DNA from: Megalobrama amblycephala
Lineage: Eukaryota > Chordata > Actinopteri > Cypriniformes > Xenocyprididae
Assembly: GCF_018812025.1 (NCBI RefSeq)
Contig: NC_063044.1
Coordinates: forward strand, 75,611,741-75,675,740
Direction of reading: 5' to 3'
Length of the DNA: 64,000 nucleotides
The notes under the pieces are model-generated. The model was not told where the DNA came from. It made no database searches and worked only from the letters and a program-made list of their open reading frames with translations. The translations under genes were made by a program, and so were the position numbers. Of the stretch, positions 4,740 through 59,867 are shown in pieces; positions within the stretch are counted from its first letter, which is position 1, and the number at the start of each line of letters is the position of its first letter.

Positions 4740-4757
4740 ACTGGGTCTGCGGTTTAG

Positions 4758-4766: not shown

Positions 4767-4768
4767 TC

Positions 4769-5816: not shown

Positions 5817-5856
5817 TAATATAATATAATGATCAGTCAAATATACTGTGTTTCAG

Positions 5857-9789: not shown

Positions 9790-9829
<40 letters not shown>

Positions 9830-22308: not shown

Positions 22309-22483
22309 GAAATTCTAGTTTCTGTTGGCATGGTGATGTGAATCTGTCCAGCGGTTTCCCGGACAGGGTTTAAATGAATCTAGAATAGTTAATCATGGCT
22401 TTAAAAATGGTTTCACAGATTATGTACAGATTACTAACACCTGGACTAAGCCCAGATGATGCCCTTCCTCCTATACTCTGAAC
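21858..22483. other. Spacer with an AT microsatellite
   Basis: Upstream region of the protease and then non-coding DNA. The open frame at 22144-22341 is an artefact of the (TA)n run at about 22247-22305. Confidence 0.6.
22247..22305. repeat. (TA)n microsatellite
   Basis: About 29 uninterrupted TA units. Confidence 0.95.
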
Positions 22484-22488
22484 TAGAC

Positions 22489-22948
22489 TGTCACAGACAC
22501 GTCAGGCTCCACCATGCACCAATCACAACGCACTCAATCACTGGAGTACTGATCACCGCCACCTGCACTTCATTATCACTCTCATCAACACCACCATAAA
22601 GAGCACTCACACGCAGCACTCTATGTCCGGTCTCGTTTTGCTATACTTACATGTATGCTTACCTCAAGGACTCCCCGCTCTCTACTTACCTGTCTCCTGT
22701 GCATCCCGATCTCCCAGTGTGTTCTGCATCTCAGTGTGAGTGCTCCCTCGTCTCCTACGTTCTCCAGCTCCAGCGATCTCAAATACCCTTCTTCCTGTAA
22801 CCACAAAGGACTGTAATTATTACCATTCATCTCTACCAACATCTCTATCATCATCACTTCACTCCTGCACTGCCATCTATGCTCACTGGTTTCAATAAAG
22901 ACTACTTACCTGTATTTCATCTGTGTCCGACCCCTCTGTACCATAACA
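22489..22948 (+). repeat. 5' LTR of gypsy-2
   Basis: This 460-bp LTR begins TGTCACAG and ends CATAACA. ATAAAG is followed after about 29 nt by GTCCGGTCT, the same promoter layout as gypsy-1. AATAAA lies near its end. The putative primer site AGACCGGAC is at 22951-22959, two bases inside. Confidence 0.95.
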
Positions 22949-22950
22949 GA

Positions 22951-22959
22951 AGACCGGAC
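22951..22959 (+). other. Putative self-priming site of gypsy-2
   Basis: AGACCGGAC sits two bases inside the 5' LTR, the same sequence and spacing as in gypsy-1. It is complementary to GTCCGGTCT in its own 5' LTR. Confidence 0.55.
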
Positions 22960-22977
22960 CAAAACCGCTGAACCAGT

Positions 22978-25350: not shown

Positions 25351-25576
25351 TGGAAGTGGACGCCTCTACCACCGGAGTGGGAGCGGTACTCTCACAGCAG
25401 CAGGGGACCCCAAGCAGACTCCATCCTTGCACCTTCTTCTCCCGCAAACTCAACCCGGTGGAAGTCAACTACGACATTGGTGACAGAGAACTTCTTGCCG
25501 TGAAGCTAGCCTTGGAAGAGTGGAGGCATTGGTTGGAGGGAGCTAAACATCCTTTCCTGGTCCTTACTGATCAGTA

Positions 25577-26055
25577 GTTTCCATGGCAGTGGTTAGACCT
25601 TTCAGAGGGATTAGACGACATGACTTGGAGAAACGGTCGATGATAACCAGGATGCAGGTATGCCCATGAGATGCTGGAAGGTCGGTGATGAAATCAACTC
25701 ATAGGTGTGACCAGGGTCGATTTGGAACGGGCAGAGGAAGGAGCTTGCCGGATGGTAGATGGCGTGAGCTCTTCAAGATGGCGCACTCCCTGCAGTCCTG
25801 CACGTACCTTCTGACATCTGCCGCCATGTTTGGCCACCAGAAGCGTTCTTTTAGCAACGAGAGGGTTCCATTGACCCCCGGGTGACCAGTGCCAAGTGAC
25901 GTGTGGGCTGAGTGAATGGTTGGAGTGCGTCGTGTCCTGGTAAACTTGGGAACTTGGAATGATCGGTTCAGGTTCTTCAGATCTTTCTTCAGGAGCATGG
26001 AGACGGGAGAGGGCATCAGCTTTCACATTCTTTGAACCTGGACGATAGGCAGTGA
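25577..26055 (-). other. Inverted internal segment of gypsy-2
   Basis: Within the plus-strand element this stretch encodes pol only on the minus strand. It reads [16 protein letters not shown], then the integrase zinc-binding region and the segment before [10 protein letters not shown]. It corresponds to gypsy-1 about 1530-2090. The plus-strand reading resumes at about 26162 where the inverted piece would have ended, so the segment was flipped in place. About 90 bp of RNase H C-terminus is missing at one junction. Confidence 0.8.
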
Positions 26056-26160
26056 TGGGAATAACGGCGTTATAAATAACGCGCGTTACTAACGCCGTTA
26101 CTTTTTTCAGTAACGAGTAATCAAACGAATTACTTTTCATCCGAGTAACTGTTATTCAAC
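26056..26160. mobile_element. Fragment of a dispersed DNA-transposon end at the inversion junction
   Basis: GTGATGGGAATAACGGCG, with repeated CGTTACTAACGCCG units and CAGTAACGAGTAATC, is a widespread fish repeat that I associate with hAT-type termini. It fills the gap between the inverted block and the resumed integrase. The class is from memory and uncertain. Confidence 0.4.
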
Positions 26161-26161
26161 C

Positions 26162-27095
26162 ATGTGTTCTGGTACTTCGGTATTCCTGAGGATATTGTGT
26201 CCGATAGAGGACCGCAGTTCATTTCTCGTGTATGGAAGGCTTTCCACTCGCTGTCAGTTTAACATCTGGATACCACCCACAGTCGAACGGGCAGACAGAA
26301 AGGAAAATCCAGGAGATCGGCTGCTTCCTCCGTACCTTCTGTCATGACCACCAGAACTCTTGGAACCAGTACTTGGGTTGGGCCGAGTACGCACAGAACT
26401 CCCTGCGGCAACCGACTACAGGACTCACTCCCTTCCAGTGCATACTCGGTTACCAACCCCCACTGTTCCCCTGGAACGGGGAACCATTGGACGTACCAGC
26501 GGTGGATTACTGGTTCCGAGAGAGCGAGAGGGTCTGGGACTAGCACACCACCAACCTTCGCCGCTCCGACACTCCAGTTTACCAGCCCGGACAGAAGGTT
26601 TGGCTGTCAACACCGGACATCAGACTGCGTCTGCCCTGCAAAAAGCTGAGTCCCAGGTTCATTGGCCCATTCCCCATCGTCAAGCAGATCAACCCGGTCA
26701 CCTACCAGCTCCAACTTCCACCAGGTTATCGCATTCACCCCACTTTCCACGTCTCACTGCTAAAGCCTCACCACCCTTCTGTCTCTACCTCCACAGGGCC
26801 TGACGTGGCAGCCGCCGAACCCCTCTTCCACTCATCCTGGAGGATGGCGCAGCATACGAGGTTCACGAGATCTTGGACTCCCGACACCATGGTGGTCAAC
26901 TGGAATATCTCGTGGACTGGGAAGGCTATGGCCCTGAAGAACGCTCCTGGGTTCCAAGAAACGACATCCTCGACCCTAACCTGCTTCAAAATTTCCACAG
27001 TAACCACCCTGACAGACCTGCCCCGCGTGGAAGAAGACGACCACCACGACGTCGGGGTCCTCGGCCCTCAGGAGCGGGCCGTGGAGGGGGGGTAC
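26162..27095 (+). pseudogene. gypsy-2 integrase C-terminal half and chromodomain, broken
   Basis: The sequence reads [15 protein letters not shown], then a small indel and [13 protein letters not shown] (26270 on), a stop near 26541, more frame changes, and a chromodomain from about 26873 ([17 protein letters not shown]). The Arg-rich tail and polypurine tract precede the 3' LTR. Confidence 0.85.
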
Positions 27096-27504
27096 TGTCA
27101 CAGACACGTCAGGCTCCACCATGCACCAATCACAACGCACTCAATCACCGGAGTACTGATCACTGTTACCTGCACTTCATTATCACTCTCATCAACACCA
27201 CCATAAAGAGCACTCACACGCAGCACTCTATGTCGTTATGCTTACCTCAAGGACTCCCCGCTCTCTACTTACCTGTGTTCTGCGTCTCAGTGTGAGTGAT
27301 CCCTCGTCTCCTACGTTCTCCAGCTCCAGCGATCTCAAATACCCTTCTACCTGTAACCACAAAGGACTGTAATTATTACCATTCATCTCTACCAACATCT
27401 CTATCATCATCACTTCACTCCTGCACTGCAATCTATGCTCACTGGTTTTAATAAAGACTACTTACCTGTATTTCATCTGTGTCTGACCCCTCTGTACCAT
27501 AACA
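27096..27504 (+). repeat. 3' LTR of gypsy-2
   Basis: This 409-bp LTR lacks two segments present in the 5' LTR. One is about 30 bp containing CGGTCTCG at the predicted RNA start, and the other is about 20-25 bp further on. It is otherwise closely similar. Confidence 0.95.
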
Positions 27505-31518: not shown

Positions 31519-33457
31519 CTACTTTGCATCTCTGGATCTGATGTCATAAACCACAAAAGAAACAGCAGCCACGCCCACCAGAGCAGTGATGACCAATCGG
31601 ATCACAGGTTCAGTAAATCCACAACAGTAGTTTTCTGAAGGAAAAAATGAGGACTTATATTGGAAAATATACTAAAGACAAACGCTAATATCAACACTGA
31701 CATACCTGGACATGGTTGACAGAGTTGACTGATGTCCAGATGTTTGGTCTGGTTGCTGATGGGATTCTTCAGCACACAGCTGTAGGTGTTTTTATCCTGA
31801 TTCTCCACCTCCAGATGTAGCGAGACGCTGCTTCTGAGATCAGACACACTGATGCTGGACAATAAACTGTTTCCTCTGTACCAGGAGAGAGCCACATGGT
31901 TCACATTCACAGCTGAACACACTAATGAACAGTTTGATGATGATGATGATGAAGAACACTGTGAGGAGTCTCTGGTGATGGCAGGAACAGGCAGACGGGC
32001 TGCAGAATAAACAGACAAAATCAATTGTAAAATACAGGCTAAACACTAATTTAAATAATGACTCAAATCATTAGGTTTCATTTGACACCAAATTCAGAGG
32101 CTGCGTCCTTCGAAGGCCACATTTGGAGGTCACTGTGGCACAATGAAGTCTGGGAAATGAAGGATACAACAGATGAATCCTTTGTGGCCTCACCTATCTC
32201 ACAATTCATTGCACGTCAGTGATGACAGGGTTTATTTTGAGAGAAATTTCCAGATTACACCCTAGACAGCAGTGTGTCGGTGTCAGTAGTGTTGGCCCAG
32301 ATCCGGCCCACATCTGGTACGTGTGGAATCAGTGGCAGATGTCACATTTGCTAGGCCACAAGAACAGTCCTCTATAGGCTAGACCACCCATTTAATCTGC
32401 CTTTGTGGCCTATGATGGATGCAGCCTTTGAATTGGGACACATCTTATATGTTCTAAATAATCTAAAAAGGACAAAATTATTGACAAACGTAAATAATTT
32501 CCATATTTCATGACCAGCAGGTGGTGCTGTCTGTGGTTTTCTAACTCCTCAGATGTAGTGTCCTCTGCATTACTCCTGGAGAGGTTTTGAAAGGGTAGGT
32601 TTTTCAGAAAATTAAAAAAGTTTTGAAAACCAGTGTATGCATATGACTCAGCATGAGCATGAGGAGAATTACGTTTCTTGAACCGAAACATCTGACAGAC
32701 GTTTCAGTTCTAGAAATTGTTATATATAGCAATACTAACAGGTACAGTGGGTGAACATCCAGAGACCAATGCTATAAAAATGAACAATTTGTTGCATATC
32801 AACTTCATGTTTCATTATAGTGATTTTGTTCCAATAAAAGAGTTTGAAATTAACCAGTCACTCACAATAGACGGTAAGATTGAATTTCCTGACTTGGTCT
32901 CCTGCCCCTCCCTTGACGTTTACTTCATAAGGTCCAGAGTCAGTGGTTCTGGTGTTGTTGATGGTCAGAGATCCAGTCTGATCATCCAGCTTCAGTCTGT
33001 CTCTGAATATCCCATCAGGACCATCAAATAATGAGATCTGACCGGCATCTATGAGAGCTATGAGAGCACCTTGATCTCCAAACGTCCACAGTATCTTATT
33101 TCTCAGTAGTTCAGCAGCACCAGGCTTTAGAAGGACTGAATCTCCCTCCATCGCTGACACTGACTTCACTGCATCTACATCACCAAACACTCCTGCAAAA
33201 CAGAAACTTATAGACAAATGAAAAATACCTGAGAAACTAAACACTACTGCTTTAACTTTAAATTGAACACAAACACATAGGCCTATAAGGATTACACATA
33301 TATAAAAGTCTACAGAATTATATACAGTAGATTAAATAAAGATGAAAGTTGCCTATATAGAATAATATGCAATATCTATTACAATGTTTAGGCCACAACA
33401 TAGATGCTTACCAATGGGACTCCACGAACAACAGAGCAAAGCAAACAGGCGAAGCAT
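31519..33457 (-). CDS. CD48/SLAM-like Ig receptor with a short tail
   Basis: Four minus-strand exons, 33457-33412, 33192-32866, 31999-31706 and 31634-31519, join to 783 bp or 260 residues, all phase 1 with GT-AG introns. Exon 1 is a signal peptide ([10 protein letters not shown]). Exon 2 is a V-type Ig domain without the usual cysteine pair, as in CD2/SLAM proteins ([23 protein letters not shown]). Exon 3 is a C2-type Ig domain with its cysteines ([16 protein letters not shown]). Exon 4 holds [12 protein letters not shown], a transmembrane helix and a nine-residue tail ending SRDAK. With almost no tail it cannot signal through ITSM motifs and probably acts as a ligand or adhesion partner, as CD48 does. 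It faces the gene at 35091 head to head. Confidence 0.88.
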
Positions 33458-35090: not shown

Positions 35091-38000
35091 ATGAAGAGCG
35101 CGTTTACTATGTGTGTGTGCTTCTTCGTCATAGAGGGTAAGTGTTTGAATTCAGATTTTAATGCTTTCGGTTTCACTTTGTCCCTGTCAGGTGTGCTTTC
35201 TTCAAATGCAAAGGCTTGTCATGTAAAACTACTAAGTGCATGTGATGTACGCATTACCTTCAAGACTGATGATGTGCTCGACTCATTCATTTAAAATATA
35301 GAGGAGAATTTTTAAGGAATTATCCTCCAAACACAATGTTCTGCTTGAAAGGAAACTAGTTTAGTAAAGTTGGCAACAGATTCGAATTACCGGGATCAAT
35401 AACTTTGTTACTACATAAATATATACATACAACGAGCTACAATCTAATTTCATAACGACCCTTCCTCTGCAATGTACGAGCGGCTGAGAGAGGAGTCCGG
35501 AGGAACCGTCTGCAAAGTGCAAATCCCGAAAAACTTTACTAAAAAAATAGTGCCGCTATATTCAGTTTACACATCAGGTCTCCTACTTATTATGCTACAT
35601 AATTTAGTTTAAACGTAATTTTGTATGAGTTTTTATTATGAAAAATATTCAGTAACATAACTTTAACACATTCACCAAATTCAGTTCACACATCCTGATG
35701 TACAACAATTAACTGATTGTATTTAAAAATTAAATACATTACAAATTGTAAATAAAAATTATGCAAAAACACATTTTCATAGTAAGTTTTGTAGTATAAC
35801 CAGCTGGACAGCGATGTTGTGTGGACTGGATTTGATGGCATTGCACTGCATAACAGTGAAGATATTGAATATTTTTCTTAATAAAAACAAAAATGTGCAA
35901 AAACCAATAGGAGACCATTGATGTGTAAACTGAATTTGGTGACACTACAGTGTGTAACATTAAAGTTGACTATTTTTTCGGGTTTTGCACTTTGCAGACG
36001 GTCCCTCAGATACCATTCTTTTACATCTGTTAAAAATCACTTCATCTGGAAAGAATCTGCTGTTTACAAACATCTTTAAGATGTCAGTTTTACATACATT
36101 CTATATCATACACATCTTAAAGACATCTTCTAAATGTTTAGGAAACGTCCTATAGACATATTGCAGATGAGCAACACTTTCCGAGATATATGTGTGCTAT
36201 CTATTGATCTATCTATTGTGCAGTACTATTGATCTGGTAAATTAAAATCTGCCAAATTTACTGAATTCAGCAAGTTTTCCTGGTTAGCAAACTGTTGAGA
36301 GCTCCTCTCTCTACTATACAAACAAGGATGCGCTTATCAAAAGTTCAAACATAGTTAAACGATTCTGTGTTTCCCGAAACCGTAGTTCAAACGAACATCA
36401 GCAAACAGCATCGCAGATGATTCTTTTGCAGCGCTCAACCTGTTGTACTGGTTAGATCATATTGTTAGTGAGACATGTGGACACATGCCGTGAGGCTCAA
36501 TGCAGAAAACATTACATATGATATTGGACACATTACTATTGGTGAATTCTTTGTGAAAGAAGTCTCTTATGCTCATCAAGCCTGCATTATTTGATAAAAA
36601 AATACAGTAAAAATATTAATAATATTGTGAAATATTTTTACAATTTAAAATAACGGTTTTCTATTTTAACATACTTTAAAATATAATTTATTTCTGTGGT
36701 GCAAATCTGAATTTTCAGCATCATTACTCCAGTCTTCAATTTGACATAATCCTTCAGAAATCATTCTAATATGCTGATTTATTATCAATTTCTGAAATAG
36801 TTGTGCTGCTTAATATTTTATTGGAACCTGTGTTGCTTTTTTTCAGGATTTAACGATGAATAAAGTTTAAAAGAACAAAATCTATTTAAAATAGAAATAT
36901 TTTCTGACAATAGAAGCCTTTATTATCACTTGATCAATTTAACACATTCTTTCTGAATAAAAGTGTTAAATTCCTTTCAAAACAAGACAGAAAATTATGA
37001 AATTTATTCCGATGAATTAAAAGAAGATATTTTGAAGAACGCTGGTAACCAAACGTTGGCCATTGACTTCCGTAGAAGGGGAAAAAAATACTATGGCCAA
37101 CATTTGGTTACCAGCATTCTTCAAAATATCAGAACAAATAAACTCATACAGGATTGGAACAACATACAGGTGCTGGTCATATAATTAGAATATTGTGAAA
37201 AAATTAATTTTTTTATTGTAAATTATTTTAAAAAATGAAACTTTCATTTATACTAGATTACCTACGTGTAAAGTAAAACATTTCAAAAGTTTTTTTTTTT
37301 TTTTTTTTTTTAATTTGTTGATTAGAGCGTACAGCTAATGAAAGTCCAAAATCCAGTATCTCAAAATATTAGAATATTTACATTTGAGTTTCATTAAATG
37401 ACCATCCCTACAGTATAAATTCCAGGTATCTCTTGTTCTTTGAAACCACACTAATGGGGAAGACTGCTGACTTGGCAATGGTCCAGGAGACAATCATTGA
37501 CACCCTCCACAAAGAGAGTCACAGATGGTCATTACTGAATGTGGTGGCTGTTTACAGAGTGATGTATCAAAGCATATTAAATGCAAAGTTGACTAGAAGG
37601 AAGAAATTGGGTAGGCAAAGGTGCACAAGCAACAGGGATGGCCACAAGCTTGAGAATACTGTCAAGTAAAGCCGATTCAGACACTTGGGAGAGCTTCACA
37701 ATGAGTCGAATGAAGCCGGAGTCAGCGCATCAAGAGCCACCACACTCAGACATCTTCAGGAAAAGGACTACCAAGCCACTCCTGAAACAGAAACAACGTC
37801 AGAAGCATCTTACCTGGGCTAAGGAGAAAAAGAACTGGACAGTGAACAGTGGTCGAAAGTCCTCTTTTCAGATAAAAGTAAATTTTGCATTTCATGTTGA
37901 AATCATGGTCCCAGAGTCTGAAGGAAGACTGGAGAGGCACAGAATAAAAGCTGCTTGAAGTCTAGTGTGAAGTTTCTGAAGTTAGTAATGATTTGGGGGG

Positions 38001-41000
38001 CAGTGACGTCTGCTGGTGTTGGTCCATTGTGTTTTATCAAGTGCAAAGTCAATGCAGCCATCTTCCAGGAGATTTTTGAGCACTTTATGCTTCCATCTGC
38101 TGACAAGCTTTATGGAGATGCTGATTTCCTTTTCCAGCAGGACTTTAGCACCTGCCCACAGTGCAAAAACCACTTCCAAGTGGTTTGCTGACCATGATAT
38201 TACTGTGCTTTATTGGCCAGCCAACATGCCTGACCCCTGAATCTATGGGATATTTTCAAGAGAAAGATGAGAAACAGTGGATCCAACAATATACAGATGA
38301 TCTGAAGGCTCAATAGTGCCTCAGCAGTGACACAGGCTGATCACTTCCATGCCACACTTCACTGATGCTGTAATTTGTGCTAGGAGCAAGTCATTTGCTG
38401 TAATATGTGCTGCCGACCAAGTATTGAGTGCACAAATGAACATACTTTAAAGAACTTGAACTTTTCTGTTTTGAAAATCCATTTTTTGATTGATCTTAGG
38501 AAATATTCTAATATTTTGAGATACTGGATTTTGGACTTTCATGAGCTGTACGCTCTAATCATCAAAATTTAATAAAAAAAAACTTTTGAAATTTTTTACT
38601 TTACATGTAGGGAATCTAGAATATGTGAAAGTTTAATTTTTAAAAATAATTTACAATAAAAAAATGAACTTTTTCACAATATTCTAATTATATGACTAGC
38701 ACCTGTATAAGTTAAGTAAATGATGAGAGAACTTTCATTTTTGGGTGAACTATCCCTTTAACATTTTTATTTTTCTGGCAATTGTTTATTTTTAATAAAA
38801 GGTAAAGCATATGGTGAATGAATAAACGTAACATGTTTCCGTTTGTTCTGCAGGTGTGTTTGATGTTGATCCAGATGAAGTGAAGACCGTGATCGAGGGA
38901 GATTCTCTTACTCTACAGACTGATTTTATTGAAACCCAGAAAGATGGTCTAACAGAGTGGAAATTTAATGATAATAGCATCGCAACAATCAACAGAGCAA
39001 CTGGAAAAGTTGAATATAGTGATGTGAAGTTGATGTTTAGTGATAGAATTTATCTGGATCAAACTGGATTTTTCAACATCTGGAATATCAGAATCAAACA
39101 CTCTGGTGAATATAAAGTAAAGAGTATCAGCAGTGTAGGGACCAAATCCAAGACATTCAAAGTTATTGTGCAAGGTGAGTAAAACTGAGAATATGCAAGC
39201 TGAATTATTCAACAGTTATGGGATTGAGATATTGTTTTTGCAGATTCTCCACTCAGGTCTGTTGAAGATAAAGATGAAATAAAGGCATTGTTAGCCACAA
39301 AGGGAAACTCTGAGACCCTACACACTGATACTGACCTACAGAAACATGATCTGATACTGTGGAGATTTGGAGCTGAAGGATCTCTCATCGCTAAAGGTGA
39401 TGCAGATAACAATCAGACCTTGTACTATGATGGTGACAATGGGAGATTCAGAGACAGACTGAAGATGGACAGCAGGACTGGATCTCTGACCATCAGTGAC
39501 ATTGAAACTGAACATGCTGGAGAATTTAGACTAAAGATCATCAGTGACAGAAGGATTTTGTTCAAAAGATTCACTGTTACTGTCTCTGGTGAGTTGATGT
39601 ATTCCTTCAGTGCAACTATAAAACACTATACTTTAGAAATTCAGTTAGATAATTCAGGTTTGTCTGTATCATTACAGTACCAGGTATATCTCCAGGCGCT
39701 ATAGCGGGGATATGTGTTATTATGCTGCTGGTGGCTGCTGCTGCTGGTGCTGGTGTTGGGATTTATTGTCGACGCAGTGATTCTAAACTAAATAAACTAA
39801 TGTGTAAGTCATACAAAAATGAAGAATCACTAAGAATCGCACATTATTTTCTCAGTGTTTCTGACATCTTCATCTGTTCATTCATTTTTGTTTCGATGTG
39901 CTGCTGACATGAAGCGAAGTTCTCTAAACAACTAGAGCAACTGCGTAAGTATTCCAGCTGTATTGAGCTACAGTAGATTTTAAATGTATTATAGGATTTG
40001 TCATAGTCAATATTTATAATTTTTACCACAAGTTCTGCTTGTGTTTGATTCAGTGCAGTAATGAAGTGTGATTATTCAGTATTGAACTGCATGACATTAT
40101 ACTCATGACTGAATTGCTCTGATTTAAATGCTGAATTTACAACAAACTCACTTATAATCTCATTTCTGTTTCTATGTGCTGCTGTGACATGAAGCGAAGA
40201 TCTCCAAACAACTAGAGCAACTGTGTAAGTATTAATACAATCGAAGGAACATTTAGCTTTATTGTGCTACAGAATTGTTTAAAAACATAATCTGATTATA
40301 AAGTCAGAATTGCATGACTAAAGACTCTCAAATGTGACTTTTTTTTCTTGCAATTGCAATTGTTAGTCAAATTATGAGAAAAAAAACCTTTTTCTCGAAA
40401 TTGTAAGTTTATATCTCAACTTTGACATTCTAAGATATTACCTTGCAATTCTGAGAACAAAGTCAGATTTGTGTGATAAAAAGTTGCAATTATCTTTTTA
40501 TTTAATTTAATGTTTTTCTGTGCTGTTTTTCTCATTTGTGTCATGTTCACCTGATCACTCATTTCTAATCTCCTCTTTTCTGTTTCTATGTGCTGCTGTG
40601 ATATGAAGCAAAGCTCTCTAAACAATTGTGTAAGTATTAAAATTGATACAGCAAGAGAAAACTGTTATCGTTTAAAAGTAAAGTTTAATATAAAAACACA
40701 ATCCACTGGAGGCAAGCTTGAAGAACAGAAGACTAATGACTAAACAAGACAAACCTGTGAACATGATTAAGACAATTGACCAATGACAACATGACACAAA
40801 CAAGGGGAAGCACAATAAATGATCACATGATGACAAGGGGATCACATGACAAAACATGACTGTGACAGTAAACATTAACATAAACCCAAACAAACAAAAA
40901 CCCAACCCCAAAAGTTCATGAGGGTGGTGGAGCGGAGGCAGTTTTGGGGGGGGAGGGATCTTTCCAGAGGGCTCTGATGTGGCGGCCATGATGTGAAGAA

Positions 41001-44000
41001 ACTCAGTCTTGGTGAACATCATGTAAAGAAGCTCAGGTTTGGCAAGCATGATGTGAACAGTCTCTGGCTTGGCAGGTCTGATGTCAAAAAGTTCTGAAGG
41101 CCAAATATAAGAAACTCTGGCGTGGCAGGCATGACGTGAATAGACTCAGGCCTTCGCTGAGACGGCTGAAGACATTGCAGCACCCCCAGAGGCGGCTGAA
41201 AACGCTGCAATGCATCTAGGGGAGGTAAGCTCAATAGAGTGCCTCAGGGATGATGTGCTTTTGTAGGCCAACCCGGAAGTTAGCAGCGCACGGGTTCCCT
41301 CGGTTGAAAGCCTATGCATTTTTCCCATATACTTTTGGAAAATCGCAGAAAATAAGCTCTGTGTTTAACAAAGGGTTATGACACTTACACGTTTTGTCTA
41401 TCAAGATAATCTTTACAAGTTAACACAACATAAATACATTTTGAAGCCTAAATAAAGTCGTCAGATATAAAAAGCTAACAGTAGGCTATAAACAGACTAC
41501 AGCACATCATGGTCGCGGATCAACGTCGTCACCACCAAGCGTCCTCAAACTTTATTTAGAAAACAACATTATTTAAAAACATGCTCACTGATTATGATCT
41601 GTGCTGTTATGAATACTTATCCACTTTTTCATGAGAAATGCTGTCCAAATGTCCTGTTTATCATGATGACGTGTAAAGTCCCCGCCAAAGGAAGCAGTCC
41701 CTTTTAGCAATTTGTTAGCAACCGCCGATTTTAAGACACAGTAAAGGTTTAAAAATCACAAGTGGGTTATAACTGGTGTGATTTATGTCATAGATCAAAA
41801 CGTGAAAATATTCAGAGGCTTTGTTAACCACAGACCTTACAGTATTTCAGGCGATTTAGCAAAAACCCATTCAAAAAACCCATAGACTTGACTGCGTTGG
41901 AACCGGAAGCCCTAAAATGCTAACTCGCTTCCGGGTTTTGCCTACAAAAGTGCGTCATCCCTGAGGCACTCAATGCCACCACCTCGCCCTCACAAACGGA
42001 GGAAGAGGAGAAAGAAGTCTTCCTACATCCCTCATGGCCTGGAGACAAACCCAGAGCCTGCCGTAGGCCCGGTGGCCATCCCAGAGCCCACCGCTGCACC
42101 GCCCCGGGACTGGCCAAGCAGGCTCCGCCCTTAATGCCTGTCGAGCAGACTCCACCCTTGATGTCTTCACTGCTGGCTCCACCCTCTGCCTGCCAAGCCG
42201 GTACTGTTCTTGCTGCTTGCCCTGCTTTGTCCGCCCAAACACAGCCAGGACTCCAGTCCCTCAGCCAGTGTGTCCCTCCAGTCACGCCCTGGTTTTGTGC
42301 TAGGACTCCAGACCTGCCTGAGCCTCTCTGGTTGAACCCAACTGACCCTCCCTGGTTCCTCTTTGTGACATTGTGGACATTCCTGCTGGCTCTGACTTGG
42401 CTTTAAATCTTGTTAAATCACATTGATGGATTTAACTGCTGGTCATGCATAGAAATTTAGTGTAGCCTAATTTTCACTGATCATTAATATAAAGTCATGC
42501 AGATGATAAAGTGATTGTTAGAAGCTCATGAATAATCACACAGTATCTTCTCAGTGTTTCATGTTCATCTGTTCATTCATAATCTCCTCATTTCTGTTTC
42601 TATGTGCTGGTGTGACATGAAGCCGAGATCAATGAAAAAGAACTGGGTAAGTGTTAAAACTGATGCAGCATGTGAAACAATAGTTCATACATGTACTATG
42701 AAAACCATTTTTGCATGTCTGTGTGTCTAGTGCATTACACATTTTGAAAAGTAGTTTGGAATGTATAAAACAAAATAAAAAAATATGAAAAAAGGAACAA
42801 GTGAATAGTGCATATAACGCACATAAGAGGATTATGTTTGTTCGGAGCATTTGACTGCAGATATAAAATATATTATTATATAAAATATATAGTATTGCTT
42901 AAAAATGGTGACTTTAACACACACAACATGACTGTAATTTGTACAGACCATTAAGATTATGTCATGCAGATTATCATACAGTGTCTTCTCAGTGTTTCTT
43001 CATCTGTTCACTCATAATCTCCTCATTTCTGTTTCTGTGTGCTGCTGTGACATGAAGCGGAGGGCTGTGAAAAAGAATTATGTAAGTATTAAAACTGATA
43101 CAGTCAAAGTAAAAATGAGCTTTATTGTGCTATTTTATATTTCAAATATATAAGATGTTAATTCTGTATATATATAATGTATTTATTTGTTCATTCAATT
43201 ATAATCTCCTCATTTCTGTTTCTATGTGCTGCTGCAACATGAAGCAAAGATCTCTGAAAAACTAAAGAAAATGTGTAAGTATTACAGCCGATACAAAGGA
43301 AAAGTGATATGAAGAATCACACAGTATCCTCTTAAGTGTTTCTGACGTCTTCATCTGATGGCTCACTAATAATCTCCTTATTTCTGTTTCTATGTGCGGC
43401 TGTAACACGAAGCTGGGAACTGTGAGAAAGAAATGTGTAAGTTTCACAGCTGATACAGCAAGAGAAACAAACTGCTCTGAGACAAGTGCTGAGAACATGC
43501 AGCTAAGGGTATCCACAATCGTATTCAAAATAGCAGGAAAAAGGTCAAAACCACAGGGCAAACAATGGAAACATGAGCCCAAAACACAGGCAAACATTGA
43601 AGTCCAGAAAACCAGGCAGAAGATCAAAACTATTATACAGGCAATCGCAGCGAGAGCTCAGAAACACAAGCAAGACAGGACAGGACTTGTGTAGGCAGAG
43701 AAACACCTGAAGGGAATCAGGCACAATGAGTCTGGGCAATGGGTTATGGGAAATGCAGTCCAGGATGAGATGGCAAAGGATTATAGATGTGACAGCTTAA
43801 ATGAATAATAATTTTTCATAGTCAATAATTCACCATTCAGTGACGCATCATCACTGAAGTAATTTCAAAACAAAATATTAATTCACACACAACATTTCTG
43901 TAATTGTTAGGGATCATTAATATAAAGTCATGCAGATGATGAAGTGATTATTAGAAGCTTATGCAGAGTCACACAGTTTCTTCTCAGTGTTTCTATCATC

Positions 44001-47000
44001 TTCATCTGTTCATTCATTTTTGTTTCCATGTGCTGCTGATGTGAAGCGGAGATATCTAAACAACTAGAGCAACTGCGTGAGTATTCCAGCTGATTCAGAG
44101 CTGTATTGTGCTACAGTGGATTTTAATATTTATAGTAGACTCAATATTTATAATGTTCACCTCAAGTTCTATGATTATCCAGTATCGCGCTGCATGATAT
44201 TAATATACTGACGACTATTATCATTATTACAGTAATTGTCACTGGTTGCTAAAATGCTGATTTAAAAATAAATAAATTAAGATCTGTGTTAGTGCTATTG
44301 AAGCTCACAGAACTGCAGAAATGTAGTGCCAACTGGCTTAAAATCATAGTCTTGACTTATTTTGAGTGTTATCTGCACTGTGTGTCAGTGTTTCTGTCAT
44401 GTTCATCTGATCACTCACTATAATCAAAAAGTTCCTCATTTCTCTGTCTGTGTGCTGCTGGGACAGAAGAAGAGAAGATCTCAGAACGACTGTGTAAGTA
44501 TTAAAACTGATGCAGCCAAAGAATTATAAGCATGATTGTGCTTCAGCAGAATAAAGTTCAAATGTCAAATGATTTTGATATTTATGATTTTTCACTCCAT
44601 GTTCTGCTTGTGAGAGATGTGTGTGATTGTCCAGTATTGAGCTGCATGACATTAATAAAATACTCATGACTGAATCACATGCAACATTACTGTAGTGGTT
44701 ACACATCATTAATATAAACTCATGATGTGATTGTTAGAAGCTCACGATCACTCAGTGTTACTGACAAGTTCAATAACTTATAATCTCCTCATTTCTGTTT
44801 CTACATGCTGCTGCGTCATGAAGCCGAGATTGCTGACAAAATAAAGAAAGTATGTAAGTATCACAGTAGAGTTTAACATTAAGACGCCATAGGCGTGAAA
44901 CTCTCCTGAACTAATGTGAAAAATATTTAAATCCATTGCTGTGAAAAGTATTGTGTATTTATAATTCATGTTAGTGATGGATTTAACTAATGTTCACACA
45001 CACACACACACACACACACACATTACTGTAATCGTTACTGATCATTAATATAAAATCATGCAGATGATGAAGCGATTATTAGAAGCTCGTGAAGAATCTC
45101 GCAGTATCTTCTCAGTGTTTCTTCATCTGTTCATTCACTCATAATATCCTCGTTTCTCTGTTTCTCTGTGACAGGTGAAGATAAGAAACCTGAACAACCA
45201 GAGCTGCAGCGTAAGTATTCCTGCTGACGGCAAGAGTAAAACGAGTTCCCTATCGATGAATGGCTGCCTGCATGCATGCATCCTTCAGACAATAAAGCAC
45301 ACGTCTGTTTGAAGCAAAACATTTTCTAAAAAATGCTGGGTTAAAAACAACCTAAGTTGGGTCAAATATGGACAGCGACTGGGCTGTTTTGACCCAGCAG
45401 TTGGGTTAAATGCTTTAATTACTGGGCAGTTTTATTTAACTTAGCTATGTTTACTATATTTCTGGCTTAAATTGAGCCCAAAATAGGCTGGAAATTTAAC
45501 ATCAGACACATAATTACTAGAGGCAATGATAAACATTGACATTTATTAATAAGAAATTTAAGAAATGTGTATTATTTAACTTTTATTTATTAACCGTATT
45601 GATAAATGTTCTTTTTTTAAACATATTAATGATAAATGTTCATTTCATTTTAAGCAAGCAATATAGTAAATAGTAAACAATAGTTGAGCTAAATAAAACA
45701 GGTGGGGTCAAACAGCTGCTGATGTTGTTTAATGTTAATTCACATTAACGATAGATTTAACTAATGTTCACACTCAAAATATAAAAGAAGATGCAGATGA
45801 TGAAGTGTTTATTAGAAGCACAGGAAGAATCACACAGTGTCGTCTCAGTGTTTAGTTCTGTCACGTTCATCTGATCACTCACTTATAATCAAATCTCTCT
45901 GTGTTTTATGTGCAGCTTTGACAGGTGAAGCAGAGACCTCTGAACCAGAAACACGTAAGCATTACTGCTGAAACAGCAAGTGCAATGCATGCTTTCAATT
46001 ACTTCAGATAATTGATATTTTTTCTGATATTTCTCACAAACTAAACCACTGAATTAAACTAAACATTTAATTAAACACAAACTAAACATCAAAATTATGT
46101 AGCAAACCTGAAAGAACATAATGTATATTCTTCATGTGAATTACAAATCAAACTACTATGTTTTGCATTTATTAAATTAACATAAAATGAACACCTGCTG
46201 CAGTAATTATACATAAGTAGCGGAAATGAGAATTTCAACAGAAAATGCAATAAAATACTAAAATTATTAATTCCTATGGTGAAATTGCTAAATTTGTGCA
46301 GGGTAGAGAACAGTGTTGTCGTCATTATACTATTTGATTATATTAGTAAATTACATATTACAAATTAGTAAAATACATATTTTATATTTAAAATCTTTAC
46401 CGCGTTGGTGTTTTAATGGTTTTGTGATAATCACCCAGCTAAAACTTTTACCCTGTTCTGTTGCTGATCTACATTTGTGACTGTTTTCCTGAGCTTTTAT
46501 TTGAACACTTGTGTTAGAAGACCAAAAATCATGTGCATTTTAAACCGATAAAAATCACTTCAGTGATCTTTGTGTAGTGGTTTCAATCTCTGATGTTCAC
46601 ATGCAAACTCTACTTTGTCTTTCTCTGTTTCTAGATGCTGATGTCACAGAAGTAGAGGCAAGGGGATCAGAGCTGGAGAGAGGTGTGTTTATGTTGAAGA
46701 GACTGTCATATTGTGATGGGATATTCAGAGGCAGTCCTCGGGATGTGCTGCAGGAGACTTCACAGAGTGCTCACCTCTTGCATTGTCAATACAAGATCTT
46801 CAACAAACATTGATGCACCTCTTGATGGAAATAAATGTTGTGATGTTATTTCCATTAAGAAGTGCTGTTTTTGGACAGTATCTTGTATTGACATCCTGGA
46901 ATATGGTCATGATACATAATCCTACATGGTTGTTTAAGAAATGCAAAGCTACACACAACATTTTTAAGGGTTGAAAGGACAGTCTTAAATATTTGCCTAT

Positions 47001-49190
47001 TATCTTTCTTTTAAGTGTATATCATTACATAGCACTGTATATATCACTGTCGTTTGTACATCATCTATTCATTCACTATAATCTAATTTCTCTGTGCAGA
47101 TGAAATGGAGATCTCTGAACAAGAAATATGTGAGTATTACAACTGAAACAACAAGCGTAAAATGTGTTTTGTTGTGCGACAATTAATGTTGAATGAAAAA
47201 GAGGTTTGTTAAAGGACTATAATGCATTAAGAGCTCGCTCAGGTACTGGGGAGCTAAACCATTTAGTGCTTTGTAAGTAATTAGCAAGATTTTAAAATCT
47301 ATACGATGTTTAACAGGAAGCCAATGCAGTGACGACAGAACTGGGCTAATATGGTCATACTTCCTAGTTCTAGTAAGAACTCTAGCTGCTGCGATTTGGA
47401 CCGGCTGGGTTTGTTTATTAGGCGAGTAGGGCAACCACCCAGTAGAGCGTTACAGTAATCTAGCCTTGAGGTCATGAACGCATGAACTAACTGTTCTGCA
47501 TTCTTCAGTGAGAGCATATGTCGTAGTTTAGATATATTATTAAGTAGTTTGAGTTTGAGTCTGTAAATCTCTCTGAATCTCCTGGTCATTTCAGTCCCTG
47601 AGGTTCGCATGCAAACACACACTTGATCTAATGTCTACTTTTTCTTTGTATTTCTCTATTTCTAGGTGCTGATGTCACACAGATGGAGAAGGGTGAAGGG
47701 GAACGGTGCATTTTAGTTGCAGAGACTGCCATAAGCCGAGTGATGGGTGATGATCGGACTGTCATAGACAGAAAGGGCAGGCAGGAGCCTTGTGATCCGT
47801 AACCTCAGTACTAAACGTGCTGGAGGTCACACACATGGTGAGTAGGTGTCTTTTAATTGTTTTAATGGAAGAAGGGTTTGTTTATTCAGTAATATTCAAG
47901 TGCTCCTGAGAAAGTGATGAAATGTGACAAAATAAAGTTACGATTGTTAGGTTTGTCCACATGAACCTGATCACGCTGAAATAAAAATGTCCATGCTGCC
48001 GAGTGGAAAGTGGGTTTTAAATCCTACTATCCTGTTTGCCTACAGTCCACTGCTTCATTTTGGCAAAGGCTTTTTACTAAAGACCGAGACTCCTGATGAC
48101 TGGACCTGACTGTCTTCTGACTGACCTGTAAATGAAACAAAATGATCATTTGTATGAACTGGAAAGTGTGCAGACAAACTATTGTTTTAGACCTCAATTT
48201 TTTTCTTTCTAGTTTTCATGTGACCATCATGTCTAATAAATTCATTGTCTAATTCATCTGTGATTGTTGTTAAAACAGATGGAAAAGATCCTGAAAATGA
48301 TCTGAAAGAGCTGAAAGAAGGTGAGATTCTGTTGGAAAACAAGATCATGATCTGATGTGTGTGATGTAACACATTCAGATTATGTCAAACACCATCATGT
48401 ATTAAAATAAAATCCTCTGAACACAAGCTGCCAGATAGTCATTAATGAACGTAACTGAATACAAATTGTTTGTACTGAGAGAAATGGTGTTGAAAAAGTC
48501 AATGCAAACTTTAGATTTGAGTTTGCATGTTGTAGAAGGTGCATGACTGAGGGGATGTTTACATGACGATCCCCTGTTGTACACGGATCTGTGAAAATAA
48601 CTAAAAAGGTTGTAATACGCGTGTCTGGCCAGTAGATGGCGATGTCACTTTGTCAAAAACACCTTGCAAAAATGAAATATGAATATGTGAACACATAATA
48701 CGCATGCGCATGTCATCACCGTTTTCACGGATTCACGTTTTTGTTGTTTTCATGGAGATGGTAAAGGCATCGTTTCAAAACTGTACACTTTGAAACCCGT
48801 TTTCATAAGCTTGTGTTTTCAATCTCCCAAAACACTGTTGTGATGTAAATGAATGACCAAAACACTTTTCCGTTGAAAATGATGTTGTGTAAACGGCCCC
48901 TGAGTTCAGAAATATAATAAATGTCATGTTCATTTGTGAGAAACGAGCAAGTGCCCAAACAATGTGTTGTTGACAATATTTTCTTTTTTTAATTATTTTG
49001 TACATTTAATTTCTAATGATAATTTGATGGATAAATTATTGACATTCATTTTGATTTCCTTCCAGAACCATCAGGAAAAGAAAGCATTCGACTATCAGCC
49101 AAACAGACGAGGATGGAGAGAATGAGCAGTAGAAGAAGAGATAAGACACGCCCACTAGTGTCAATCACTGTGACATCATCAGCATTTTAG
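35091..49190 (+). CDS. SLAM/CD2-like receptor with a micro-exon-encoded cytoplasmic tail
   Basis: Exons 35091-35136 (signal MKSAFTMCVCFFVIEG), 38854-39174 and 39244-39588 (two V-type Ig domains without cysteine pairs) and 39678-39803 (transmembrane, then CRRSDSK) are followed by predicted tiny exons. These are 39915-39944, 40195-40224, 40609-40629, 42623-42646, 43058-43081, 43245-43274, 43413-43436, 44047-44076, 44470-44493, 44824-44853, 45175-45210, 45925-45954, 46635-46682, 47100-47129, 47666-47692 and 48279-48320, with a last exon at 49066-49190. All join in phase 1. Using every one gives 1443 bp, about 480 residues. The tail repeats short charged units such as SKQLEQL, ISEKLKKM and EISEQEI, has no tyrosine, and ends RRRDKTRPLV to SSAF. 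SLAM-type tails normally carry tyrosine switch motifs; this one does not. The large first intron holds a MITE and a Tc1 element. Ig and TM exons are solid; the micro-exons are inferred from splice sites and frame. Confidence 0.8.
35503..36006. mobile_element. MITE-like element in intron 1
   Basis: Inverted ends read ACCGTCTGCAAAGTGCAAAT near 35507 and its complement with TTTGCACTTTGCAGACGG near 35983-36002. Internal sequence is also partly palindromic around TCAGTTTACACATC. There is no open frame. Confidence 0.6.
37167..38705 (+). mobile_element. Tc1-like DNA transposon (Tc1-B)
   Basis: The element begins CAGGTGCTGGTCATATAATT and ends with the complement. TA lies on both sides (37165-37166, 38706-38707) and the inverted repeats are about 200 bp. 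Its ends match Tc1-A for about 28 bp but the interior is diverged, so it belongs to a related subfamily. Confidence 0.92.
37453..38275 (+). pseudogene. Tc1-B transposase remnant
   Basis: The frame starts MGKTADLAMVQETIIDTLHKE and soon breaks. Later pieces in other frames resemble the Tc1-A protein ([44 protein letters not shown]). Several frameshifts and missing blocks make it much more decayed than Tc1-A. Confidence 0.8.
40680..42400. repeat. Composite repeat insertion between micro-exons 3 and 4
   Basis: This widens one inter-exon interval from a few hundred bp to 2 kb. The left part has an LTR-like end (ACATGACTGTGACAG near 40856) and repeated CATGATGTGAAGAAACTCAG-like units at about 40985-41150. 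A TIR element follows at 41238-41972, then a Pro-rich open stretch at 42134-42406 with no recognised family. It is probably a decayed LTR element with a later DNA transposon inside. Confidence 0.45.
41238..41972. mobile_element. Non-autonomous DNA transposon with inverted ends
   Basis: AGTGCCTCAGGGATGATG at the left and its complement CATCCCTGAGGCACT at the right bound about 735 bp. The inverted similarity continues inward through TTTTGTAGGC and CCGGAAGT. There is no coding capacity. Confidence 0.75.
43480..43800 (-). repeat. Possible solo-LTR remnant between micro-exons 7 and 8
   Basis: Sequence unlike the surrounding duplicated introns ends GATGTGACAG and includes GGGTTATGGGAAATGCAGTCC. 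This resembles the LTR edges of other fish elements in the window. Both ends are poorly defined. Confidence 0.3.
44994..45021. repeat. (CA)n microsatellite
   Basis: About 13 CA units in the intron between micro-exons 10 and 11. Confidence 0.9.
45330..45735. repeat. Dispersed repeat between micro-exons 11 and 12
   Basis: GCTGGGTTAAAAACAACC at the left, with TTTTGACCCAGCAGTTGGG and later GTGGGGTCAAACAGC, is typical of a common fish non-autonomous DNA repeat. Boundaries are approximate. Confidence 0.4.
47195..47625 (-). mobile_element. 5'-truncated LINE fragment (L2-like)
   Basis: The minus strand reads HAFMTSRLDYCNALL, QIAAARVLTRTRKYDHI, LHWLPVKHRIDFKIL and YKALNGLAPQYLSELL, the C-terminal part of fish L2-type reverse transcriptase proteins. 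It sits in the intron between micro-exons 14 and 15 and is frameshifted. Confidence 0.8.
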
Positions 49191-51570
49191 CTCAGTCTTT
49201 CAGAAGCTTCTAGAAAGACTTTAAGACACTGATTCATTTCTCACTTTCAGTGAAAAGCTTTTTGGGAAACACAGCCATATATAATCGTATTAATGTTTCA
49301 CTACATACCTCACCTTTAAAGTGTTACTCTTAACATAACACTACTTTGACTCTCACAGCTTTGTCAGAAATATCACTTATTTTTAAAGAAGTGTTTTACC
49401 GCAGCAGTATCTCTGTTTTATGTCATTAACACTAGTGCAAGGAGGTGTGTCTTCATTTGCATAAAACACGTCCATATAAGGGCTTTCCGCGCATGCTTCA
49501 ATTCCTTACAGCCTTTCGTCACTCGTGTCAAATCTTGCCGCTGTTTGCGGACGCGCTCTCTCCTGATCCTCGAGCAATGACAGGTGTGCCGTTCTCACCA
49601 GTTCTCACAATAAACCGCTTTCATACCGACCCGGATTACAGAGCTGTCAGACATTATCACAGATGAAGATATAACGCAGCTTTTCTTACTCTTTAACTGT
49701 ATATAATGTATTTAAAGCTGCAGTCCAGAACCTTTTTTTGGCTCTAAATTATCCAAAATCAGTACATATCCAGCCTAGTGTTCAGAACTATCTCCTTATC
49801 TTAGCCTGATTCACAACGGTAAGCTTGTAATAATGTTTTAAAATCTACAGGTAATACACTAATACACACTAAATACACATAGTCATGCAATGCTGATGTT
49901 GTAAACATTAATAATTTAAGAAAAACAAAGTATAACAGTAATAATAATTTGCACGGTTTGGCGTGATCCGAGCTAAGAGATCGTTAGATTTAATTATCAT
50001 TGGCAGTGTGATTTATTGTACAACTAATGCTTTTTTTCCTCAGTCAGAACAAAAGTGGCAGACATGTTACTTACTTGTTCAGATGATATTTTCCAGTGAA
50101 ATTCTTATATTGGTCATACTTTCAAGACGTAGAGTCTGTGATTCTGAAGTTCAGTATCCACACCGGTGCGGTGACTGACAGCAAAGCATTAGATTCATTC
50201 GCACTGAGGAGTCGTGTCGTGCCGCACAACGCATGTACAGATAACTGTTCCCGCATATGACTGCAATCACAGGTTTCAAACAGAGATGGCGACAAAGAGG
50301 AAAAATGCAGCTTTAAAGATTGAATGAAATTGTAATATTTAATAATTTTATTATATTATTATTTTATATATGGATTGTATAATACAATTAATGAAACATA
50401 CTTCAATATAATTATAGTCGTGTTAGGATGAAACTTCTTAACACCATTATAAGGCCTTACAGAGAAAGTCCTTTATGTGTATGTGTGGTTTCAGTTGTTC
50501 CCATATGTTTACGTAAATTTAGAATAAATTATATTAGGAAATTCTTGGTGAACTGTGATTTGTTCGTTAAAATCGTTCATACGCACACATTTGTACGTAC
50601 GCATGTGAATGAGACCCAGTGTCTGCTGTCATTGTCTGGTTACCAACATTCTTCAAAACATCTTTGTGTTCAGAAGAAAGAAACTAATACAGTTTTGTAA
50701 CATGAACTTTATCTTAACTTAAGAACTCATTGGGTTTGTTCAACTATACATTGATTTCTAGTACTATAGGAAATTTCCATGTATAATGAGCTTTACTTTT
50801 TTCCAAACCCTCAGATGCCTAAAGGGGTCAAACAGATCTGACTTTCTTTTCTCAGTTTTTTTTTGTCTTTTTGATAAAATAATTAAATTCTCCATTTCTC
50901 TGAATTCTTTTTTCAGCTTGTAGGTGCTTATACAGCAATGCCATTTTCAAATTTATTGTTCATATTTTCCAGAATATACAGCTCTGGAAAAAATTAAGAG
51001 ACCACTTAACATTGATTTCTGAACTTGGAGTGGGCTCTCTTTTTTTTCCAGAGCTGTATATATATATTCTGTGTGTGTGTGTTTGTATTTTATTAGTTGG
51101 GGTCCAAAATTTTGCCATACCATGATTCAGAATTTTGGTTTGTGACTGTTAATTTATTTTTTTCTGTATTTTCTCTCTTACGTAGGAGCACATGCTATGT
51201 ATGAAATCAAAACTGTGGGCCTAAGGGTTTGCTGTTTATTTACGACTCCTTTAAAAACCGATTGTAAGAAGCCCATGTTCAGCTTGTGTTCTTTTATTAT
51301 AAGGGCTGTACAGATATTATGTTAGTCACTGATTTGAATCCAGAATGTGTGGCGTAATCGGAGATCGGATCAGTTTCGGGAATGGCAGAGTGAAAGCAGA
51401 GGTCCTGCAGTCTTAATCTAAAATATACTTCGTTCACACAGCCGAACGCACAGCCTTGCAAAGTATACTTATTCTGACTCGTACATGTACACAGGCATTT
51501 AAAATTTAAATGCACATTTGCAACCTTTTACAAGTACGCGGAGTTACACAAATCCGGTCATATATATATA
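49191..51570. other. Downstream region of the micro-exon receptor
   Basis: The 3' untranslated region and then gene-free DNA. A dispersed repeat lies at about 49715-50320, with TTTAAAGCTGCAGTCC at one end and GCAGCTTTAAAG at the other, and a short TA-flanked MITE follows. Open frames at 49445, 49963 and 50428 show no recognisable domain. Confidence 0.45.
50979..51056. mobile_element. 78-bp Tc1-type MITE
   Basis: CAGCTCTGGAAAAAA and its inverted complement TTTTTTTTCCAGAGCTG form the ends, with TA on either side. The interior keeps only AAGAGACCACTTAAC. This is a deletion derivative reduced to its inverted repeats. Confidence 0.8.
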
Positions 51571-51785
51571 GATCAAGCTTACGTTTCACAGGAAAACCAC
51601 ATGGTTCATCCAGTCCTTCCACATCATAATCCACACTCCAGACATCAGTGTTGAAGAAATCACATCCCTTCCTCTGGTTTGATGCTGTAGTTACTCCAAG
51701 AATCCACCAGTAACTCTCTTTAACCTCCACATCCCAGCAGTGTGTTCCTGAGTTAAACCCCTCTGAACCCAGAACACAGGGATAA
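51571..51785 (-). pseudogene. Isolated B30.2 (SPRY) fragment
   Basis: The minus strand encodes [18 protein letters not shown], then [16 protein letters not shown] and [15 protein letters not shown]. It matches 9296-9510 inside the last TRIM exon over exactly 215 bp with sharp edges and no indel. The start of PRY and the end of SPRY are absent and no RING or coiled-coil exon is nearby, so it is a duplicated exon scrap. Confidence 0.85.
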
Positions 51786-52157
51786 TGCTGGATACACACA
51801 AACCTCTAAAATCACTATACAATAACGAGTGTGAATTAAGTATGCGTGTAAACTTTTGAATGAAATAAGCGCAAATCACTAAATCAGAGATTTGTCAAGA
51901 TGAACAAAAACGTGAAATACTAAATCACACACATTTTCTACAATTTGATATCTATTTAATTGAATTACATCTTGTACAATATGATACGCGTCACTAGTTT
52001 TGTCTTCGCTCTCTCCCAGAGCGGGCAAGCAGATGTGTAATGTGAGGGAGGGGTTAAGTTTCTGACCAATATGAGCATTTTCTTATTAAAGCAGCCACAT
52101 TCAGCTTCTAGAAGAGAAGACACAACTGTTTCATTAAGTCGCTATTGTACGGTGTCC

Positions 52158-58271: not shown

Positions 58272-59867
58272 ATGGCCGATCAGTGTGATCTGTGTCTGCT
58301 GGGACTGATCATTCTCTCTTCACTTCTCACAGGTAAAGAAATCTGGATTTTCTCTAAAGACATTTAGTGGAATTAGTCTGGAAAGAGTTGATTTGAACAT
58401 GCTCAGTTTATTCTTGCACACATTCACGTTGTGATCTCAGAGTTGTGTATTGATACATACAGATCATACTGTATTATTCCTGATACTGGACATAGAGTCA
58501 CTCAAACATCTGATGATCAACAATTATCTTCATATTCAGAGATTTCAACAGCTACATGATCAAGACAAACACTTTATTCTAGAGAGTGATTGTCTTAAGT
58601 GAGGGGAAAAGACTGTTTGATATGCTTTATGTTTCATTTATTAATGTACAGTAGTCAACATTGGAAGTGGATCAAAAAAGTTCATCACAGTTGTCCTAAG
58701 AAGAAGGTTTTAAGACAACTTTGAAGAAAGGTTTTGATCTACTTCAAATGTTGACTTCAGTATATCATAGATCAGTCAAATATACTGTGTTTCAGGTACC
58801 AGTGGAGTGGATGATCCTCATGTGTTCATCAGTTCTGGTGAAAATGTCCGTCTGCCCTGTAATAATGCTCTTTCTGACTGCAAATCAACTACATGGAGCT
58901 ACAGGAGAGCTGCTGTGTCTGTTGATCTGATTGATCAAGGGATAATAAATAAAGACACAGAGAGACATGAGAGACTGAGTCTGGGGTCTGACTGCTCTCT
59001 GAACATCAAGAACGTCACAGAAGATGATCATGGATATTACATCTGCCTACAATATGTGAATGATGAACAACTAGGAAATGTTACTTATTTTTTTGCACCT
59101 GTTTTTCTGCATGTTCTTCATGGTAATTTTATGATTATCTAATTTAAAAAGGACAGATTCTCCCTTTAAACTCACATGATGATTGAAGAGTCTGTGATTT
59201 GTGTCTTGTGTTCAGTTTCAGTATCTTCATCATCTTCATCATCATCCTCATCATCACCACAGACTGAGATCAGTCCAGGTCGCTCTGTGACTCTCTCCTG
59301 TCAGATGTATTCATATGATGGAGTCTCTTGTAATTATTTGGTCCCTTCTAAAGGACTTCAGCTGTTGTGGGTGAATCAGACTGGTGCTGATCTGAAGACA
59401 GACTCCAGATATCAGATATTATTCTCATCAGATCACTGTATCATCACTCTGACTACAACACTCCTGAATGAAGATGACAACAGAGAGTGGAGATGTCAGC
59501 TTACTCGCAGAAATCAACTCCAGACCTCAGTCAGATACACTGTCAAGTATTCAGGTGAGAAACAACTATTACTACTGTAAAATATGATGTTAATGTCCTA
59601 CAGATGAACATCTGAACATTCATCTTCTGATTCCAGTCAGCAGCTCAAACTCTGAGAAGAAATCAAGCCAAACTACAGCAGCAGCTCCTACACAAGGTTC
59701 ATGATCACATGATCACTGTCACACATCATCAGTCTCTCACTTCACTGGTTCACACTGGCTTTAATTAATCCATCCTTTCATTTGTACAGAGAATCAGAAG
59801 TCATTAAATACTCCAAACTCTGAGAGGACAGCAGCTGCTCAAACACCTGGATTTACTGAACAACAAG
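58272..59867 (+). CDS. Ig-superfamily receptor, copy B (3' exons not found)
   Basis: Exons 58272-58332 (signal peptide starting MADQCDLCLLGLI), 58796-59122 (V-like Ig), 59216-59554 (second Ig), 59637-59696 and 59790-59867 (stalk) all join in phase 1. The exon plan is that of copy A, and the two stalk exons look identical in nucleotide sequence to A. The V domain keeps the framework (VRLPCNN, ERHERLSLGSDCSLNIKNV) but differs in the loop regions. After 59995 the similarity to A stops and repeat sequence follows. The transmembrane and tail exons are either beyond 64000 or lost. It may be a truncated gene or a gene with a long intron. Confidence 0.78.

Follow-up and report, generated by a model that had tools for sequence, protein, structure and literature searches.

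The window, that is, the whole 64,000-nucleotide stretch of Megalobrama amblycephala DNA that was analyzed, carries on its forward strand a receptor gene with a long series of very short exons. Joining 19 window segments, namely E1, Ig1, Ig2, TM, M1 to M14, and M15 up to its stop, rebuilds a protein of 465 amino acids that is identical at every residue to P0001, the "uncharacterized protein LOC125246879 [Megalobrama amblycephala]" found in a protein search with the joined prediction as the query. All features of this gene lie on the plus strand, and positions 38500-50000 were inspected directly in the sequence. Exon 1 (E1; 35091..35136) encodes the signal peptide (residues 1-15 of P0001 and the first base of residue 16) and is followed by GTAAGT. 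Two phase 1 exons, Ig1 (38854..39174) and Ig2 (39244..39588), encode immunoglobulin (Ig) domains and are both part of the rebuilt protein, and the transmembrane (TM) exon, with the donor GTAAGT, lies at 39678..39803. Downstream are the cassettes M1 (39915..39944, 30 nt), M2 (40195..40224, 30 nt), M3 (40609..40629, 21 nt), M4 (42623..42646, 24 nt), M5 (43058..43081, 24 nt), M6 (43245..43274, 30 nt), M7 (43413..43436, 24 nt), M8 (44047..44076, 30 nt), M9 (44467..44493, 27 nt), M10 (44824..44853, 30 nt), M11 (45175..45210, 36 nt), which closes the conserved core, M12 (45916..45954, 39 nt as annotated), M13 (46635..46682, 48 nt, donor GTGTGT), and M14 (47100..47129, 30 nt). M1 to M8 and M10 are delimited by repeats, self-blastn, and the annotated protein, M9 by the annotated protein, M11 by the annotated protein, self-blastn, and alignment, and M13 and M14 by the annotated protein and self-blastn. 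The series ends with M15 (47666..47837 in its long form of 172 nt; 27 nt in its short form), M16 (48279..48320, 42 nt), and the terminal exon M17 (49066..49190). Because P0001 is rebuilt exactly from the window, M1 to M14 are exons of the annotated protein, and a chance spacing of AG and GT dinucleotides can be dismissed.

The receptor gene has varied neighbors. A second Ig receptor gene lies on the opposite strand at 31605-33331 (-); within it, part of P0001 is matched at 34% identity by 32870-33265 (-), and the Pfam domains that pass the cut-off are I-set at 32861-33331 (-) and Ig_2 at 31605-32045 (-). Two similar pairs of Ig-like open reading frames (ORFs), noticed by eye about 53 kb apart at 5820-6624 and 58771-59580 (+), apparently represent a duplicated receptor of another kind; Pfam detects a V-set domain above the cut-off at 5835-6182 and a weak match below the cut-offs at 59170-59580. 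The regions 9132-9791, 16757-17206, and 51506-51805 (-) contain PRY/SPRY and RING plus B-box pieces (Pfam) and a second SPRY-like ORF (by eye), predicted to be TRIM-like genes around the receptor. Long ORFs resembling the gag-pol of Gypsy-type retrotransposons (404-4865, 22482-27295, and 62411-63797) were likewise recognized by eye, as were pieces of Tc1/mariner-like transposase ORFs, spread over several frames, within the first intron of the receptor gene (37388-38240, +).

A previous sequence-only reading had proposed 16 short segments after the TM exon, each preceded by AG and followed by GT, each a multiple of three between 21 and 48 nt, and each entering and leaving in phase 1. All of this holds when M15 is taken in its short form, which uses the donor GTGAAG. 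M12 is indeed an annotated exon, but its annotated acceptor precedes 45916, giving 39 nt instead of the 30 nt obtained with an inner acceptor before 45925. The complete join of M1 to M16 is an open reading frame, and the 13 cassettes scanned singly (M1-M12 and M14) contain no stop in the coding frame, compared with 5 and 15 in the other two frames. The same reading fared less well on its remaining splice claims. Ten of the 16 cassettes, not 11, have the donor GTAAGT, and 11 of 17 is reached only by including the TM exon. The assertion that no join creates a stop is incorrect. Joining TM, M1-M16, and the terminal exon pairwise in all forward combinations gives 153 joins, 15 of which produce TAA, because AA opens both M9 and the terminal exon and several exons have T as their last base; this contradicts the assertion that any subset can be skipped. 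Nine of the 15 lead into the terminal exon, from TM, M2, M3, M5-M7, M9, M10, and M14, the direct join of TM to the terminal exon being among them. Reading through the intron after M1-M12 or M14 (13 of the 15 introns read) meets a stop after 3-12 codons, and after TM and M13 it does so after 34 and 43 codons, respectively. No RNA family reached the gathering score in 39600-49300. The frame neutrality of all 16 segments (M15 in its short form) would suit regulated inclusion and skipping of cassettes to produce many tail lengths, whereas the 15 stop-generating joins, nine of them into the terminal exon, speak against such combinatorial splicing, which, together with the evidence from relatives given below, we regard as unlikely.

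The distal end of the gene departs from the uniform pattern. M15 does not hold up as a short unit: the annotation continues past the short donor, relatives encode the longer exon 47666-47837, and the annotated P0001 ends inside it, at the in-frame stop 47798-47800. In the window, the long M15 is frameshifted, its 172 nt ending out of frame; its peptide continues in P0002, encoded by another gene of the same species, and in P0003, and that continuation is also present in the window, but in another frame. M16 is absent from P0001, and its peptide occurs in the paralogue P0002. The terminal exon is also absent from P0001; read in the cassette frame, it yields a C-terminus unlike that of P0002, which it matches only in a different frame. 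These mismatches indicate either that the C-terminus of LOC125246879 is shortened and altered here or that the assembly contains errors at M15 and the terminal exon. An array of sixteen equal cassettes was rejected, because M15 is annotated within a longer exon, and neither M16 nor the terminal exon contributes to the annotated protein of this copy.

The proposed serial duplication of exon plus intron was borne out for 13 segments (M1-M12 and M14), which, with their flanks, form one family according to model-free repeat finding (20 of 33 families viewed) and self-blastn (45 longest matches listed). In particular, M1 and M8 are 80% identical over 215 nt, M8 and M11 77% over 218 nt, and M4 and M5 86% over 137 nt. 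M13 and M15, which are 72% identical to each other over 98 nt, make up a second type, and M16 has no partner among the 45 longest self-blastn matches listed. An nhmmer model was built from the 13 copies, so that its scores for these copies are circular; the next matches in the window are M13 (E 0.0051) and M15 (E 0.12), nothing further within the window falls below E = 1, and the model has no match near the receptor gene at 31605-33331. Flanks included, M1 and M8 reach 89% identity over 128 nt (39833-39960 vs 43965-44092), and in the alignment their peptides share, by eye, species-specific residues in several species, which points to possible gene conversion between the two cassettes.

The pooled pN/pS among ten cassettes is 0.87, so strong purifying selection on the cassette units is not visible, a point against a fixed rod. 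Diversifying selection, considered in terms of faster change in exons than in flanks, was also tried as an explanation. The exon is the more divergent part in 11 of the 12 pairs with a flank divergence of at most 0.2, and in 22 of all 45 pairs, with mean divergences of 0.343 and 0.341, so that there is no overall difference (column test p 0.84). The comparison is ungapped, and the claim was dropped because the flanks contain splice signals and M1, M8, and M9 are out of register. The pN/pS value would also fit a decaying locus, in which repeats spread neutrally and the gene copy is turning into a pseudogene, as would the frameshifted M15, the terminal exon that is out of step with P0002, and the transposase-like pieces seen by eye in intron 1. 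Against this, the reading frame is open throughout M1-M14, both Ig exons, and the TM exon, all of which are linked in the annotated protein, and the core is kept in relatives from other species; we consider decay improbable.

The protein search scored 7996 candidates, 564 of which exceeded the cut-off, and the names of the best 120 of these 564 are those of cyprinids in the wide sense, loaches, suckers, and Danio. A profile of the tail matches 36 of 121 proteins, including the nine used to build it. In an alignment of 13 proteins (A1; P0001 and 12 relatives), the core M1-M11, corresponding to residues 279-381 of P0001, is gap-free in four of the 12 relatives, one of them from Carassius, with 92 (P0003), 79 (P0004), 76 (P0068), and 63 (P0007) of the 103 core residues identical. 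The preservation of core length in these four speaks for a fixed rod and against combinatorial splicing. The other eight relatives have at least one insertion or deletion in M1-M11, ranging from 1 to 3 residues in P0005, P0006, and P0008 to larger losses in P0002 (10 residues), P0010 (9), P0012 (11), P0013 (30), and P0024 (25). The relatives are mostly gene models, which may favor the longest form. The 30 M1-M11 residues that P0013 lacks are present in P0005, which would be expected if cassettes were skipped; however, these are separate carp entries with different ectodomains. Similarly, P0017 and P0018 have, by eye, far fewer units, but absent units may be genomic losses or faults of the gene models, and the source name of P0001 carries no isoform label. 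When the indels of 16 relatives were compared with the exon junctions, the picture was mixed: some ends coincide with junctions (P0002 at M1) and many do not, in part because repeats leave the aligner free in where it puts gaps. Four database proteins (P0015, P0016, P0021, and P0096) end, by eye, in sequence resembling read-through of GTAAGT. Given relatives with such ends or without whole cassettes, the tail may be subject to some regulated variation. In Onychostoma macrolepis, P0032 and P0034, entries named as isoforms X4 and X3 of si:ch73-27e22.4, are distinguished by a single repeat unit of ~11 residues directly behind the TM segment and by a few other substitutions, and this unit is a candidate skipped cassette.

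The distal units vary more than the core among relatives. A rough count by pattern gives seven M15-type heads in P0006, three in P0010, two each in P0004, P0012, and P0018, and one each in P0001, P0002, P0003, P0005, P0007, P0008, P0013, and P0017; because the numbering of the partial proteins P0024, P0060, and P0068 differs, their counts are unsure. In P0006, from Pimephales promelas, the seven M15-type units follow one another in the tail, apparently because the distal module has expanded in this lineage. A region search for this module in other receptors returned six proteins, all already among the known relatives.

The receptor had been called SLAM/CD2-like, which is weakly supported and for the ectodomain only. 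The SLAM/CD2 family (SLAMF6, CD48) gives the best, though weak, ectodomain sequence match: SLAMF6 is the best PDB profile match for Ig1 (E 3.2e-06; 60 of 149 matches viewed), and CD166, Robo2, PD-L1, and CD48 are among the further matches, the last two on Ig2. By contrast, JAML and CD226 head the Foldseek ranking obtained with the whole model, at low TM-scores, and P0001 differs from the SLAM/CD2 family in having no cysteine in its ectodomain (residues 16-237) and no tyrosine in its tail; in P0002, a single tail tyrosine occurs within RCIYVAET. The ITSM is a tyrosine motif of SLAM-family tails, and the tail of P0001 therefore has no ITSM. PD-L1 is a B7-family protein, and butyrophilin is named in none of the 60 matches viewed out of 149.

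AlphaFold2, run on a single chain with 34 sequences, produced a model with a mean pLDDT of 68.1 and a pTM of 0.47, in which two strand regions represent the Ig domains and residues 243-267 form the TM helix. Helices follow in the tail at 273-287, 289-308, 311-352, and 355-372, with disorder from 373 onward; the block pLDDT is 53 for residues 271-280, 60-79 for 281-370, and below 50 for 373-445 and 447-465. Hydrophobic residues in M1-M10 recur with a period of 3.33 residues, and the peak is reached by 34 of 5000 shuffles, which favors the rod; that the period falls short of the 3.5 residues of a regular heptad coil counts against it. Weak PDB profile matches of the tail are of coiled-coil type and favor the rod (sc-apCC-4, E 0.0049; rop, E 0.0091; 60 of 149 matches viewed). 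Taken together, we consider it probable that the array encodes the intracellular tail of a two-Ig-domain cyprinid receptor (LOC125246879 in M. amblycephala) and that M1-M11 form a constitutive coiled-coil rod rather than a substrate for free mix-and-match splicing. As modeled with moderate confidence, M1-M11 would be a membrane-adjacent helical segment, probably a coiled-coil rod, followed by a disordered acidic stretch. The full set of cassettes is probably included by default. By analogy with the chicken BG genes, the rod could pair receptor chains and couple them to cytoplasmic partners, and short-tailed forms might arise mainly by retention of an intron adjoining a cassette. The uniform phase 1 would mainly allow evolution to gain or lose cassettes with the frame intact.

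The main claim, that of a receptor tail of duplicated, frame-neutral micro-exons, is upheld, as the cassettes are annotated, duplicated, and in phase 1. A literature search covering titles and the starts of abstracts found no paper on a cyprinid micro-exon receptor tail. The additional claim that no named receptor has this arrangement is nevertheless wrong, because the chicken BG genes share the plan, as do, in a short version, the butyrophilins. According to excerpts of two papers (PMC4046983, PMC5938342), BG genes consist of signal, Ig, and TM exons followed by 13-36 exons of 21 (18 or 24) nt, in which the first codon is split, with one base from the previous exon and two from the next, corresponding to phase 1; the tail is presumed to be a coiled coil, the number of exons varies among genes, and truncation occurs through intron read-through. 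Thus, the receptor gene is real, and its design is already known from chicken BG.

Partial counterparts exist elsewhere. The micro-exon genes (MEGs) of schistosomes, as excerpted, also contain runs of short symmetric exons, but these measure 6-36 bp and their products are secreted or membrane-anchored (PMC5825161); the same paper reports proteomic confirmation of variant MEG proteins. For BTN3A, an excerpt describes several very short "heptad" exons between TM and the next domain, with macaque isoforms reported to lack one heptad (PMC6790196). The heptad units of BTN3A are few, with B30.2 next in BTN3A1 and BTN3A3, whereas the bream array is long, and scanning the hand-joined prediction against Pfam (E up to 0.1) reveals no B30.2/SPRY domain after the cassettes.

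As far as the excerpts describe it, the likeness to BG and butyrophilin genes comprises many small phase 1 exons after the TM exon and a helical tail, the helix in the bream protein being predicted with moderate confidence. These shared features, together with the match of PD-L1 to Ig2 (60 of 149 matches viewed), would be expected if the tail exons were the fish version of BTN heptad exons, inherited from a common ancestor. Such shared descent appears very unlikely to us: the bream gene has two Ig exons and no ectodomain cysteine, whereas BG has one V-like domain and forms disulfide-linked dimers, and SLAMF6 tops the PDB profiles, with no butyrophilin in the 60 of 149 matches viewed. The units differ as well, being mostly 21-nt heptads in BG and 21-36 nt with a 10-residue theme in the bream core. 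Because the ectodomain is not BG-like, an independent origin of the fish and chicken arrays is likely but unproven, BG being represented here by its description rather than its sequence. A more elaborate scenario, which we rate as rather unlikely as a whole, is that a BG-like tail built from an exon array arose independently in cyprinids, on another family of Ig receptors, and serves as a tunable rod. Its length would then depend on the gain and loss of cassettes, on conversion between them, and, in some genes, on regulated skipping or read-through, with a built-in stop wherever the last exon is joined to a cassette whose final base is T. Cassette counts across the many sequenced cyprinids provide natural variation in tail length that can be compared with expression and binding. 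If the arrays are independent, two receptor families would have reached the same intracellular rod from tiny phase 1 exons, pointing to a testable shared use, such as chain pairing or grasping the cytoskeleton.
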